64,000 bases of DNA, taken from assembly GCA_030568195.1 (NCBI GenBank), contig JAJLTO010000008.1, positions 496,001 to 560,000 on the forward strand, in the 5' to 3' direction. Shown here in pieces: positions 24,628 to 31,157 of the stretch. Source of the stretch: Dipodascopsis uninucleata var. uninucleata (lineage: Eukaryota; Ascomycota; Lipomycetes; Lipomycetales; Lipomycetaceae). A program made the position numbers and the translations under genes. The number at the start of each line of letters is the position of its first letter. Position 1 is the stretch's first letter. The notes below the pieces were generated by a model. It was not told the DNA's origin, searched no databases, and worked only from the letters and a program-made list of their open reading frames with translations.

Positions 24628-25547
24628 ATGTCATCTATGGGCGACGAGTGTCAACTTTTGGGCCCATTTGCTTTGCTTGTGCAAGGAGCAATGGGTGCTT
24701 TGGCTATATTGTCGTTAGTGTTCAAGCGATATAAAGAACATCCAAGGCGTCCAGTGCTTATCTGGTATGAAGTCTTTGTTTCGGATGAGTAACGAGTAAT
24801 CAATAAAAGAGTACTAACGGATGGGTCTTCCTAGGGCGTTTGATGTGTCTAAGCAGGTCTGGGGTGCTTGCGGCATACATATACTTAATCTTTTTCTTGC
24901 AAATTTTTCCAGCAATAATGCCGAGGATGTCCCTACGAGTCCGTGTAACTGGTGAGCAGGAAATAGTGTTGCTTATGCAGAAATAGTGGGTGGGAGATTT
25001 GTTGTTGACTAGTTTTCCTTGTATTCATAGGTACTTCCTCAACATCTTGTTAGACACTACCATAGGAGTTCCTATACTGTGGTTCTTCCTTGCACTTATC
25101 AGTCGAATAGCTACTAATGCTGGTGTCATGGGAATCAAGTCTGGTGAATATGGCCATCCGCCCAAGTGGTCTTGGTTCTTCAGACAGGCACTGATTTATT
25201 TTATGGGTCTGACTTGTATGAAGTTTGTAGTTTATGTACTGCTGACTATATTCCCATTTTGGGATGACCTGGCTCAATTCCTTCTCTCATGGACTAAGGG
25301 GCATGAAAAGACAGAGGTAGCATTCGTCATGCTTGTTTTCCCGTTGATTATGAATATCGTCCAATATTATCTTGTTGATTCCATTATCAAGTCCCACGAA
25401 CGAAAACTGCCTGTGAGACGCTTGTCCGATGAACCATTGGCAGAATCCGCCAGTGCGATTGAAAGATATCAAAGCGCAATCTCCTCTGCACGACACGATC
25501 GATATGTCGACTCACCAGACGATTCTTCAGTAATAACTGTTCATTAA
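24628..25547 (+). CDS. STIMATE/TMEM110-like multispanning membrane protein (yeast YPL162C type)
   Basis: Integral membrane protein of the STIMATE family; the animal member regulates STIM at ER-plasma membrane contacts, while fungal members are vacuolar or ER proteins of unclear role. Exons 24628-24764, 24835-24951 and 25031-25547 join in phase 2 twice, giving 256 aa. Introns are 70 nt (with a TACTAAC branch site) and 79 nt. Hydrophobic segments include GPFALLVQGAMGALAILSLV, VWGACGIHILNLFLANF and VPILWFFLALIS, and further ones follow. The family signature SGEYGHPPKWSWFFRQALIY is present. A cytosolic Ser/Arg-rich tail ends the protein. The true start is the ATG at 24628; an upstream GTG in frame is not needed. 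Confidence 0.85.
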
Positions 25548-28230
25548 GTTCTATAGAGCATATAGAACTTATCAAACCCCGTCCTTATGTCGCGTCCCAC
25601 CAAACGATCTGCAATTATACAATATCATTATTTTGGTACGAATGATAGCGATTCCATACTTTTTGAAATGCTCTTCTCTCTACAGTTTCAGTTCCTTTCA
25701 ATTCACAATTTTCGTGTTAGTAGAATCCAATTAACATTAATTCAGACGGTATTTAAGTTGGACAATTTTATAGTAGTGGTGAACGGTGCGATAGCAGATT
25801 ATAGTAATAACATCTGTCGACCTTGTTCAAGTTTAGTTATTTCATGAGACTAGAGATTCTAGCTGATAGTTTGTGCTTACGAAATAATTCAGTCTAATTT
25901 TGACTGGTGTAATATAATTGAAGATAGATATTATCATATTGCTGTTACGATTCTCTTGAATACCCAGATTTCCTTATTGTTAACGCGTATTCACTTCCCG
26001 AAGAAACGCAGCTAGCATATCTTAATATGCTAATTTATAACTGGTTTCGTTGTCCTTATGTGCAGGCGGGTTTGATCTGTATTTATAGGAACCCGATGCA
26101 GAGTCTGTTTAGAAAGGGACTTGGGTAAGGCTTAAATGTCCTGTATTTCGACCCAACCTTATCGCCCGTGACACACTATTATTACCATGCCCATTAAGAC
26201 CAACCTCGGCGCAGGTAAATGGTTTCTAGACTGGCTAGGTACATCAATTATTATGGCCCGTATAATTTTAGCATATATGACCCAACCCGGATATGGATCA
26301 CAAGAGCGAGTAATATGGTGCATAAGGATACTCAGTAGCCGGCGATACTACATTGAGATATATAAGATGTGATTGGACATGCTCTTTTCTTAGTAATGGA
26401 TAACCCAGAGCTATAAGGTTATTAAATTTTCATTGCATATCTGGTTATTGTTTCCTGCCATTACTGCCGACAGAAAATCTGTTACATGACAGAGACATGC
26501 AAATTCATAACCTGGTCTACAAAAGTCATTTTGAGTCCATTGCTGAAGTAATAGAATCTTGTTCACGCCATTTTTAATAGCTGAATAAAGTTGGTTCACC
26601 AGAAGTAACAAGCTCGAAGAGTTTCCGTGATTTAGATTTCAGCGACCCCCACACTCTGGAATATGCTCACAAAACTGAGATTTGAATTTTTGTGCGGCCA
26701 TACAAGTAATAGAGCTATAGTTTTCGATCTTTTGACAGCTATCTGATCAGTATATCCAAATGCTGGTTGACATCGCACTTCAGAGTGCGAATAGCGACGA
26801 GCAGATAGAGCCTACAAATCTCGAGAAAAATTTAAAACACGCCATACTAAATCTGAATTAAATTGGCATGTGCTGTCGCATAGACAGATCTAGAGGTTTG
26901 TTATCCATAGTTCGAGGACATTTCCTTCTTATTTCCGTGCATAGTTTGCTCCAGATTAATCAATGTGCTGCGATTATAACTTTATACACAGTCACCGCCA
27001 GTCTCAAACTTGATACTATTTTCAATGGACATAATCGCACAATAGCTTAGAAGTACAACAATAAGCTACCAGAAGTATAAAATAATAAGCTGTTCAAGAC
27101 TGTAAAGAACGAAATTATAGGTTACATATTTATTAAACACTAAGGCTATATACAATAGATGCAGAAGGGCTTTAAACTGTACACCATGTGGGCATTAGCC
27201 GGTGGGTGTTCCTTGTAGTTATATATCTACCCTTCACCAACGGACAACAGTGACACGACGAATTGTGCGTGGCTATTGCCTATTCTACAATGCAATCAAA
27301 ACTATTTTTGATCTCAGCATTCCACCTGATTAATCAGCCTCGTTCTGTACACTAAACAATTGAGCTATAATGTCCAATTCTACACATGTTACGTAAACTG
27401 ATACGGTATACACCGGTAATAATAAAGTGGCCAATTGTAATATAACTACTATCTTTTAACATTCTAAGGATGCACATTTCCAGGACTTCGACTTCGTATT
27501 ATTGCGCTCGTTGTAAATCTCTGACCAATTCGTTCTGGTGATAATTAAACAGACAATGGATACTAGAAATTATTAGTTTAGGTAGTCTATGCTAGATATT
27601 GGTTATCCGCCAGAAAGCGCCCGAAGACAAAAAACGCCAATACTATTTTTCTTTTTAGGATATTCGGTTGAGTCTTGTCCGGACCGGATTCTCTCGTCTA
27701 GTAGCAATTAATAACAAATGCGTATCCATAACATAATATTTCGGCTGTATTACGTAATTTGACAATACACGTTACAACGTCTACACTGCACGCCTTACAT
27801 AACGAAGAGCCAATTACCAATAGCGAAGAATAAATCCAAGTCGTTGATGGCCCCCTCAATCATATAGTGTAGCTGGCTTTAGATAGCAAAAGGTGCCAAA
27901 GAAACACAAGCCGTATCAGCTATAGGCGGTGGCCGGCACAGCTCTGCGGTTGGGATGGACTGAGAGTCTGTGTGCTAAGTAGGTAGTGTTTAGTAGTAAG
28001 AAAAAAATAATAAATAATATTAGTTCTTGTTATACATCACTGCGCTTCCATTTTAGATTTATAATTGCGTCGTTTCCTTCCTTTCTCTTTCCTTTCATTT
28101 TTCTTTTTCTTCTTTCTCAATTCTACATCAATTTCTCTTCCTTTATTCTAAATCAAAAGAATTTGATTAACCAAATTTCTTTTGCTTTACTTAAGTCTAT
28201 CCAAGAATTATATTTCATTGAATAATCACA
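25548..28230. other. Long gene-free stretch upstream of 6PGD gene
   Basis: About 2.7 kb, the second longest gap here. Open frames are short (at most 86 codons) and lack family features. It probably holds the 6PGD promoter in its last 300 bp. The rest could include a non-coding RNA or a degraded gene, but I see no direct evidence. Confidence 0.5.
28071..28145 (+). promoter_or_regulatory. Pyrimidine-rich core promoter tract of 6PGD gene
   Basis: A 75-nt run made mostly of C and T (TTCCTTCCTTTCTC and similar) ends about 85 nt upstream of the ATG. Such TC-rich tracts mark transcription starts of highly expressed fungal genes, which fits the strong codon bias of the gene. Confidence 0.55.
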
Positions 28231-31157
28231 ATGTCTGAGCCTGTGTAAGTCCTTCATTTAATAGTTTAATTTGTTGTTATATAGCCAGAGATAGATACGA
28301 TTGACGTATGAAGCTGTTGCTTTCTATGCCTTCGTATTTTGTTTTGTCTCCGAGTAGATACTGGCAATATTATTATTTAGTTATATGTGAAGATGTGGGA
28401 ATGAATTGACTGCGATGTGATGCTGGTTTAATGGATTTCATGATTTGGTGATCGATAAGAGTCTTCGAGAAATGATGTGCATCGCTAGTGAATATGGCTA
28501 TGACACCTATGGAGACAATGGACAACATAATATTTATGATTTTTTGTATATTATTAATATCTATTTTAAGAATTGCTGTTATTCTTGTCTGTTTAATCAT
28601 TGTGGAAATCGATGGAAATTTACATAGGGACAATGCTATCATTACTATATTTTGACATTTTGAGGAATTGTGGTGTTTGATAAGCTTGTGGAATTCGAAC
28701 AGGTATGCTGGCCATATCATGTTATTGTTTATGAACACGTAATATTTTGCAGATCAAGATTTCAAGGTTTAGCATATGGTGGTGTTTGAAGCTGATGATA
28801 CTTGAAGCGGGGCTAGATGGTGCTGGACTTCATTGCATATATTATTCCAGTGCTCTTGTTTTTTGGATGTTGCATATAATGTGGATGTATTGGTTTTATG
28901 TTACTATTTTTATAGTTATTAGAATTGTGTGAACAACGAGTTTTGCTTAAGTTCATGCAATGATTTTTTTGGTAACCAAGTGATGACCGGCGGAGTTCTC
29001 ATTTTAAGGATGTGGTTGATTGTGGTTAGTGATTGTTATTGCAACCTGTATTTGGTTGCCGTACAGTAGGATTCTCACACTTCACATATTATTATTTGAT
29101 TGCAGGAATTGACTTTATTATTATGTCGTGATTTCTAACTAACTATCTTTTTAGTGGTGGTATGTATTATATATTCAAGGCTTTGCTATTCGAATGCATC
29201 TTGCTATCATGATGATTTATAGCGTAGCTCATTACAAGAATCGATCAAAAGTATTTCTTGAGGGCTGGGGTTGAACATGGACTTCGCAAGCTAGTTATTA
29301 GTACATTGAAACTAACAAAAGCATTCTAATAGATATTGGTCTTATCGGTTTGGCCGTTATGGGTCAGGTATGTCAATAATTTTATTCTGTTAATTGTAAT
29401 ATGTATCTTGATTGCAGTTTCTCCTTCATACATGGGCATCCATGGTAGTTCGCTATCCAGAAGCACAGTCTCTTGCATGATTAAGTGCATATTCTCTATA
29501 GCGGGCAATTATATGATGTTCGTATATATCAAATTTCTGTCCATACCTGTTACGTACTAGTACGGATCTTAATTCGGGCGTCTCTTCTCCGTTAAATGAA
29601 GTTGACAGGATTATTTGTGTTTTTCGTAATCAATGTGTTATGGTTATGTAATTATTTAGCGGAGAATTTTTATGACAAGATTGATTCTTTACAGCAACTT
29701 GTCCATTGACTAAACGACTAATGTGAATTATGATCTAGAACCTGATCTTGAACGCCGCTGATCATGGCTATACCGTTATTGCCTTCAACCGTACTGTTTC
29801 CAAGGTTGACCACTTCATTGAGAACGAGGCTAAGGGTAAGAGTATTATTGGTGCTCATTCTATTGCTGAGCTCTGTGCCAAGTTGAAGAAGCCACGCCGA
29901 GTCATCCTTTTGGTTAAGGCTGGTAAGGCTGTTGATGACTTCATTGAGTTGCTTCTTCCACATATGGAGCCAGGTGACATCATCATTGATGGTGGTAACT
30001 CTCACTTTCCTGACACCAACCGTCGATGCAAGTATCTTGCTGATAAGGGCTTTTTATTTGTTGGATCCGGTGTCTCTGGTGGTGAGGAAGGAGCTCGTTA
30101 CGGTCCAAGTTTGATGCCTGGTGGAAATGTTAAAGCTTGGCCTCACATCAAGAAGATTTTCCAAGACATTGCTGCCAAGTCTGACAACGAGCCATGCTGC
30201 GACTGGGTCGGTGACGAAGGTGCTGGACATTTCGTTAAGATGGTTCACAATGGTATTGAATACGGCGACATGCAGCTTATCTGCGAGGCCTACGATATCC
30301 TTAAGAGAGGTGCTGGCTTCACCGATAAGGAGATCGGAGATGTCTTTGCCAAGTGGAACAAGGGCGTCTTGGATTCTTTCTTAGTTGAGATTACCCGTGA
30401 CATCTTGTATTATAATGATGATGATGGAACTCCTCTGGTGGAGAAGATCCTTGACACTGCTGGTCAAAAGGGTACTGGTAAGTGGACTGCCATCAACGCT
30501 CTTGATCTTGGTATGCCAGTAACTTTGATTGGTGAGGCTGTTTTCTCCCGTACTCTCTCTGCTATCAAGTCTGAGCGCGTTCGTGCCAGCAAGATCTTGA
30601 CTGGACCTACTCCAAACTTTACTGGTGACAAGCAGGAGCTTGTTGACCAACTTGAGCAGGCTTTGTATGCTTCTAAGATTATTTCTTACGCTCAAGGATT
30701 TATGTTGATTAGAGAGGCTGGACGTGATTATGGCTGGACTCTTAACAATCCTGCTATTGCTTTGATGTGGCGTGGTGGTTGCATTATTCGATCTGTTTTC
30801 TTGGGAGACATCACTCGTGCTTACCGTCAGAAGCCCGACTTGGAGAATTTGCTTTTCGACGACTTCTTTAAGAGTGCTATTGACAAGGCTCAGCCCTCAT
30901 GGCGTCAGATTGTTGCCCACTCTGCCTTGTGGGGTATCCCAACTCCAGCTTTCTCTACAGCTTTGTCCTTCTATGATGGTTACAGAAGCGAACGTCTCCC
31001 AGCTAATCTCCTCCAGGCTCAGCGTGATTACTTTGGTGCTCACACTTTCCACATTTTGCCACAGTTTGCTTCTGCGAAGTACCCTGTTAACACTGATATC
31101 CATGTTAACTGGACTGGAAGAGGTGGTAACGTTTCTGCTTCTACTTATCTTGCCTAA
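28231..31157 (+). CDS. GND1: 6-phosphogluconate dehydrogenase, decarboxylating
   Basis: Oxidises 6-phosphogluconate to ribulose 5-phosphate and CO2 with NADP, the third step of the oxidative pentose phosphate pathway in the cytosol. Exons are 28231-28244, a 5-nt microexon 29155-29159, 29333-29367 and 29739-31157; phases 2, 1 and 0 agree and give 490 aa starting MSEPVGDIGLIGLAVMGQ. Introns are 910, 173 and 371 nt, far longer than others here. Motifs: GLAVMGQN (NADP fold), FNRTVSKVD, DIIIDGGNSHFPDTNRR, VGSGVSGGEEGARYGPSLMP, catalytic Lys in GAGHFVKMVHNGIEYGDMQL, and ANLLQAQRDYFGAHTF near the end. Codon choice is strongly biased (GGT, GCT, AAG), as expected for high expression. Confidence 0.95.
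29155..29159 (+). other. GND1: Five-nucleotide microexon of 6PGD gene
   Basis: TGGTG lies between a strong acceptor (tandem CTAAC branch motifs, then ATCTTTTTAG) and a perfect GTATGT donor. It completes Val5, adds Gly6 and begins Asp7, making MSEPVGDIG. Without it, exon 1 (phase 2) and the exon at 29333 (needs phase 1) cannot join in frame. Confidence 0.8.

Follow-up and report, generated by a model that had tools for sequence, protein, structure and literature searches.

A predicted five-nucleotide microexon in the 6PGD gene of Dipodascopsis uninucleata

The pentanucleotide TGGTG at positions 29155-29159 of the analysed window (64,000 nucleotides; C8:496001-560000 in an assembly of 16.2 Mb and 25 contigs) is in all likelihood a true microexon of 5 nt, probably of constitutive use, within the sole 6PGD gene found in this assembly. 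The evidence consists of the sequence itself, the reading frame, the splice-site strength and the homology of the encoded protein. The 6PGD gene spans positions 28231-31157 on the + strand with four coding exons (14, 5, 35 and 1,419 nt), which are arranged in the gene model as follows:

28231..28244, + strand: coding part of exon 1, 14 nt (ATG TCT GAG CCT GT), ends in phase 2
28245..29154, + strand: intron 1, 910 nt, 40% T (GTAAGT...CTAACTAAC...TTTTTAG)
29135..29143, + strand: branch-site motifs of intron 1 in overlap, CTAACTAAC, with their end 9 nt ahead of the AG
29155..29159, + strand: microexon TGGTG, 5 nt (TTTTTAG/TGGTG/GTATGT)
29160..29332, + strand: intron 2, 173 nt (GTATGT...CTAAC...TAG)
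29312..29321, + strand: cryptic acceptor CTAACAAAAG, would permit exon 1 to be joined directly and in frame (MSEPVILIDIGL...), considered unused
29333..29367, + strand: exon 3, 35 nt, coding for IGLIGLAVMGQ, with which the NADP-binding fold begins (TAG/ATATTGG; CAG/GTATGT at its end)
29368..29738, + strand: intron 3, 371 nt (GTATGT...CTAAT...TAG)
29739..31157, + strand: exon 4, 1,419 nt including the stop, remainder of 6PGD (CTAG/AAC; stop at 31155-31157)

All elements named in the initial annotation, i.e. TGGTG between a CTAAC-repeat branch site with TTTTTAG acceptor and a GTATGT donor, are present in the sequence. Exon 1 and its donor read ATGTCTGAGCCTGT/GTAAGT (donor at 28245), an in-frame stop is located four codons upstream of the exon 1 ATG, and the three introns are all of the GT-AG type with CTAAC or CTAAT branch motifs. 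The spliced product comprises 490 aa without internal stop and belongs to 6PGD by its two Pfam domains, NAD_binding_2 (165 bits) and 6PGD (428 bits), both above the cut-offs. A 6PGD paralog as second gene copy was considered and rejected: PF00393 matched the gene of the window alone in the assembly, and the paralog question was checked on locus L002 among the seven PF03446 matches of the profile search. Intron 1 (910 nt) lies far above the 40-125 nt of the 41 introns of the splice model (see below), themselves selected at <=140 nt, and a regulatory role of this long intron is possible; no Rfam match to an intron-borne RNA was obtained for the window at gathering thresholds or for positions 28000-29800 at E up to 1.

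Once spliced in, TGGTG would finish the Val codon of exon 1, add a conserved Gly and open an Asp codon just ahead of the NADP-binding strand, with predicted mRNA junctions that read CCTGT-TGGTG-ATATTGG. The resulting N-terminus MSEPVGDIGLIGLAVMGQ (predicted N-terminal peptide (M)SEPVGDIGLIGLAVMGQ) agrees with the initial expectation for a fungal 6PGD. Among the 120 top-ranking proteins out of 8,000 scored, which were used for the comparison, the closest named homologs were those of Lipomyces: P0002 from L. chichibuensis (92% identity over 100%, 490 aa, representing 23 member sequences) begins with MSEPVGHIGLIGLAVMGQ and differs from the predicted N-terminus by one residue, the exon 1 residues MSEPV being identical; P0003 from L. 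oligophaga shows 89% identity over 97% (475 aa). The agreement of P0002 with the microexon product is one at the protein level, as proteins of the relatives were compared. Given the GT at the end of exon 1, the AT ATT GGT at the beginning of exon 3 and a protein reading VG(D/H), five bases of the form NGGNS are needed between both exons, and the sole instance of AG-NGGNS-GT in the intervening 1,088-nt gap is the microexon. The GLIGLAVMG motif with three preceding residues is present in 113 of the 120 best-listed homologs; the residue encoded by the microexon is Gly or Ala in 111 of these 113, and the following residue is Asp, likewise in 111/113. Furthermore, the solved 6PGD chain 2p4q_A, the S. 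cerevisiae enzyme, aligns from query residue 6 on. The pentanucleotide is thus required for the frame and codes for conserved residues, with the reservation of an in-frame direct join at 29322 that is discussed below.

For the assessment of splice-site strength, introns were inferred from 264 kb of the same genome (window plus 200 kb) wherever excision would link two long open frames. Seventy-nine of them were kept, none of which overlaps the 6PGD gene, and those of <=140 nt (41 introns) constitute the splice model, which rests on open-frame continuity and not on transcripts. Canonical splice sites directly flank the short exon, and the acceptor (score 13.9) and the donor (10.3) range at the 68th and 61st percentile of the 41 inferred introns, respectively; the microexon sites score as well as those of ordinary inferred introns of this genome. 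Similar values were obtained for the exon 3 acceptor (14.1, 68th percentile) and donor (10.5, 71st percentile) and for the exon 4 acceptor (13.0, 54th percentile). The exon 1 donor reaches just the 12th percentile (8.6), which counts against the gene model. Between exon 1 and exon 3, 2 of the 76 GT sites exceed the 5th percentile (the donors of exon 1 and of the microexon), as do 11 of the 50 AG sites, among which the microexon acceptor is second only to that of exon 3. The top acceptor preceding exon 3's own and the microexon donor stand 5 nt apart within the 1,088-nt gap. The TTTTTAG acceptor was found in one of the 41 reference introns and the double branch motif CTAACTAAC in none of them; these unusual features perhaps help in microexon recognition.

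When in-frame solutions with a single middle exon of <=400 nt were enumerated (n=106), the microexon path scored 32.7 versus 18.7 for the next, i.e. 14 bits ahead. Position 29333 was not reached in frame, directly or via the microexon, from any further single first exon with an ATG at or after 27901 and a donor >3 bits. Under loose thresholds, 369 in-frame paths with two middle exons were obtained; those with the highest scores combine the pentanucleotide with another exon (sum of 34.5 for four sites). Without the pentanucleotide, the sum for four sites was at most 24.3, versus 24.2 for the two sites of the microexon. An in-frame exon of <=32 nt with the observed 24.2 bits occurred in none of 1,000 dinucleotide shuffles (best shuffle 23.7), while at least 28/1,000 scored within 6 bits of the observed value; the latter count is a lower bound, as weak acceptors were pre-filtered in the null scans, and candidates that this filter could mask are confined to those with a perfect donor lying no more than 0.03 bits from the limit. 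When the 264 kb were divided into 910 overlapping pieces of 1,088 nt, only the piece holding the microexon reached 24.2 bits (0/909 others).

The pattern AG-N5-GTRNGT occurs once in the gap versus a mean of 0.097 per 1,088 nt (528 kb of strand, window included), and AG-NGGNS-GTRNGT once versus 0.004 expected per 1,088 nt; the bare AG-N5-GT is not rare (three in the gap versus a mean of 3.9). At the genome level, the strict motif CTAAC-N3-25-TAG-N5-GTATGT was not enriched (three places in 16.2 Mb, microexon included, versus six matches of the reversed control), so that the case rests on position, frame and homology. Likewise, CTAAC..TAG-N1-15-GTATGT (52 versus 60) and CTAAC..TAG-N1-15-GTAAGT (38 versus 71) were no commoner genome-wide than their reversed controls, and this genome therefore shows no visible tendency towards short exons. 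Other CTAAC..TAG-short-GTATGT matches, e.g. C10:25339-25369 and C14:230014-230043, are possible microexons, which as a class do not exceed the reversed control. The same 32-nt match was present at C1:1850808-1850839, close to where contig C1 ends (length 1,851,678), and at C24:363-394, at the start of C24; this suggests a subtelomeric repeat common to both or an overlap between the contig ends.

The initial annotation regarded the microexon as required by the exon phases and a direct join of exon 1 to exon 3 as impossible. Signals and homology favor the first part, whereas the second does not hold strictly: an in-frame AG is located 11 nt upstream of 29333 (29320-29321), and the join of exon 1 to an exon starting at 29322 would be in frame, stop-free and without microexon (mRNA CCTGT-CATTCTAATAG-ATATTGG; product MSEPVILIDIGLIGLAVMGQ, 492 aa). 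The score of this cryptic acceptor (10.6) falls inside the training range; however, it is composed of 8.6 for the branch and merely 2.0 bits for the AG context, the distance of the branch A to the AG is about 6 nt in CTAACAAAAG, and the site uses AAG (5/41 model introns) rather than the usual TAG (27/41). At the TAG 11 nt further on, which relies on the same branch, the score is 14.1. In addition, the protein would be two residues longer than P0002 and carry an Ile at the position occupied by Gly or Ala in 111 of 113 homologs. Based on these differences, the direct join is considered highly improbable.

A comparably small chance is assigned to a different or additional middle exon, or to two coexisting forms generated by alternative splicing, e.g. 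a peroxisomal one as in the case of Candida albicans GND1. Indeed, dual targeting of fungal 6PGD is described for C. albicans and Ustilago (PMC7214817, PMC3798809), an RLAGI-like insert is found at the position of the microexon junction in 25 of 113 homologs, and the frame permits paths with two middle exons, e.g. with 28685-28702 added before the pentanucleotide. The latter depend, however, on weak sites and extend the N-terminus beyond that of P0002, and any other single middle exon is subject to the 14-bit deficit given above. A PTS2 motif was not matched in the unspliced frames of 27700-29760; over 25000-29760 three matches were obtained, all upstream of 27400 and one of them containing a stop. 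Among 51 single-middle-exon isoforms, four contain a loose PTS2-like string, all with donors scoring <=-5. Membership in a group of dual-targeted, GND1-like genes was therefore rejected, no PTS2 being credible in the unspliced frames or the single-middle-exon isoforms.

The chance that translation starts at the MGQ codon in exon 3 with everything upstream untranslated is practically negligible: P0003 of L. oligophaga and three more of the 120 best-listed entries start there, but such a start deletes GLIGLAV, the beginning of the NADP-binding fold, which is found in 113/120 best-listed homologs and aligned in 2p4q_A, and MSEPV at 28231 matches the start of P0002 exactly. The four entries in question (P0003, P0102 of Aspergillus fruticulosus, P0056 and P0060) lack the start of this fold and are likely to be either partial open frames or gene models that were cut short. 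The MGQ start of L. oligophaga, known from the protein entry alone, would be the outcome expected from an annotation blind to small exons. The initial prediction that the microexon would be missed by automatic annotation is thus in line with the L. oligophaga entry, whereas that of L. chichibuensis covers the full length.

For the microexon as the preferred reading, the following course of splicing is proposed. TGGTG would be flanked by two standard U2-type introns. The branch A of intron 1 (29138 or 29142) is separated from the donor at 29160 by 22 or 18 nt, with the five exon bases in between; at this spacing, introns 1 and 2 are unlikely to be recognised simultaneously and would probably be removed one after the other, in either order. 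Skipping of the microexon would lead to loss of the frame and a stop after 23 codons (product MSEPVYWSYRFGRYGSEPDLERR-stop); retention of intron 2 would equally result in a stop after 23 codons and retention of intron 1 in a stop after five codons. In consequence, the microexon looks obligatory, and since under the predicted gene model its inclusion is required for 6PGD, a constitutive exon is favored over a switch. Its actual splicing, the order of intron removal and its constitutive use are predicted on these grounds. An arrangement as stwintron of the [D] type was rejected because there is no second donor at the 5' end: donors that pass the 5th percentile in 28231-29332 are restricted to 28245 and 29160, and the alternative donor at 28243 scores -7.3. 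The [A] and [L] types were considered by eye only.

Inserts with RLAGI or a similar string were observed in 25 of 113 fungal 6PGD entries (24 with a narrower pattern) and comprise mostly about 17 aa. They are positioned after the first few residues and before the (A/G)(D/N)FGLIGL core, i.e. at the microexon junction of the window; carriers are P0006, P0007, P0009, P0017, P0040 and others, while other Aspergillus entries are devoid of the insert. The insert resembles a conserved alternative N-terminus, PTS2-like except for Gly in place of the consensus His/Gln. From the RLAGI-type inserts in many filamentous-fungus annotations and the PTS2 isoform in Candida, it might be speculated that fungal 6PGD has an ancient site of alternative splicing for targeting at its V-G junction, the 5-nt exon being either the shrunken, obligatory remnant of the exon once used there or a switch that breaks the frame when skipped and so reduces 6PGD at low NADPH demand for lipid synthesis; this proposal is regarded as tentative and rather improbable.

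If spliced as predicted, TGGTG would represent an obligatory 5-nt exon within a highly conserved metabolic gene from a budding-yeast lineage and a test of how the spliceosome handles two introns with nearly overlapping signals. It may also account for the truncated database entry of the relative L. oligophaga and is of use for annotation, as gene-finding software can overlook exons of this size. 6PGD is a supplier of NADPH in oleaginous yeasts, which gives the gene model practical weight.

Among the literature matches listed, which covered few subscription papers, no Saccharomycotina case of an obligatory 5-nt exon in a conserved metabolic gene was present; the literature on Lipomyces 6PGD introns and Saccharomycotina microexons, with the same coverage, likewise contained no such case. 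With regard to the gene itself, a close parallel is C. albicans GND1, a 6PGD gene with reportedly splicing-shaped targeting, whose alternative splicing yields a PTS2 isoform (Strijbis 2012, as cited in PMC7214817 and PMC3798809; PMC9549241); in Ustilago, the PTS2 isoform of 6PGD is described to arise through non-AUG initiation (PMC7214817, PMC3798809, PMC9549241). No credible PTS2 was found for the 6PGD of the window. The complex introns or stwintrons of Lipomyces, the genus of the closest homologs, in which the donor is interrupted or directly adjoined by an internal intron (PMC7138796), resemble the present arrangement in that two consecutive splicing reactions occur at one place, whereas introns 1 and 2 of the 6PGD gene are kept apart by the coding pentanucleotide. 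The exact complex-intron sequence pattern published there for the L. japonicus reticulon gene does not occur in the assembly. The microexon of Trichoderma virens Xlr2, also from an ascomycete, is described as a regulated switch with two isoforms (PMC11121469); as skipping of the 6PGD microexon leads to an early stop, evidence for an Xlr2-like switch is not given. The plant microexons of <=15 nt, often misannotated or missed (PMC8831610), and the 1-nt exon of Arabidopsis (PMC4674806) share the tiny size with the 6PGD exon but differ in their origin from plants and, for the first set, in the RNA-seq data from which it was derived. A close resemblance in structure is that to the single-nucleotide exon of Fusarium CYP621A (PMC12940212), an ultra-small fungal exon that is likewise forced by incompatible intron phases in a conserved motif and is usually misannotated there; it is documented by 20 orthologs and SRA reads, whereas the 6PGD exon measures 5 nt and is known from the sequence of one genome. 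The initial assertion that exons this small are very hard for spliceosomes is fair in general but has to be qualified by these 1-nt exons reported with reads in Fusarium. Tiny exons are already known down to 1 nt, and the 6PGD pentanucleotide is a fresh example of them rather than a new mechanism.
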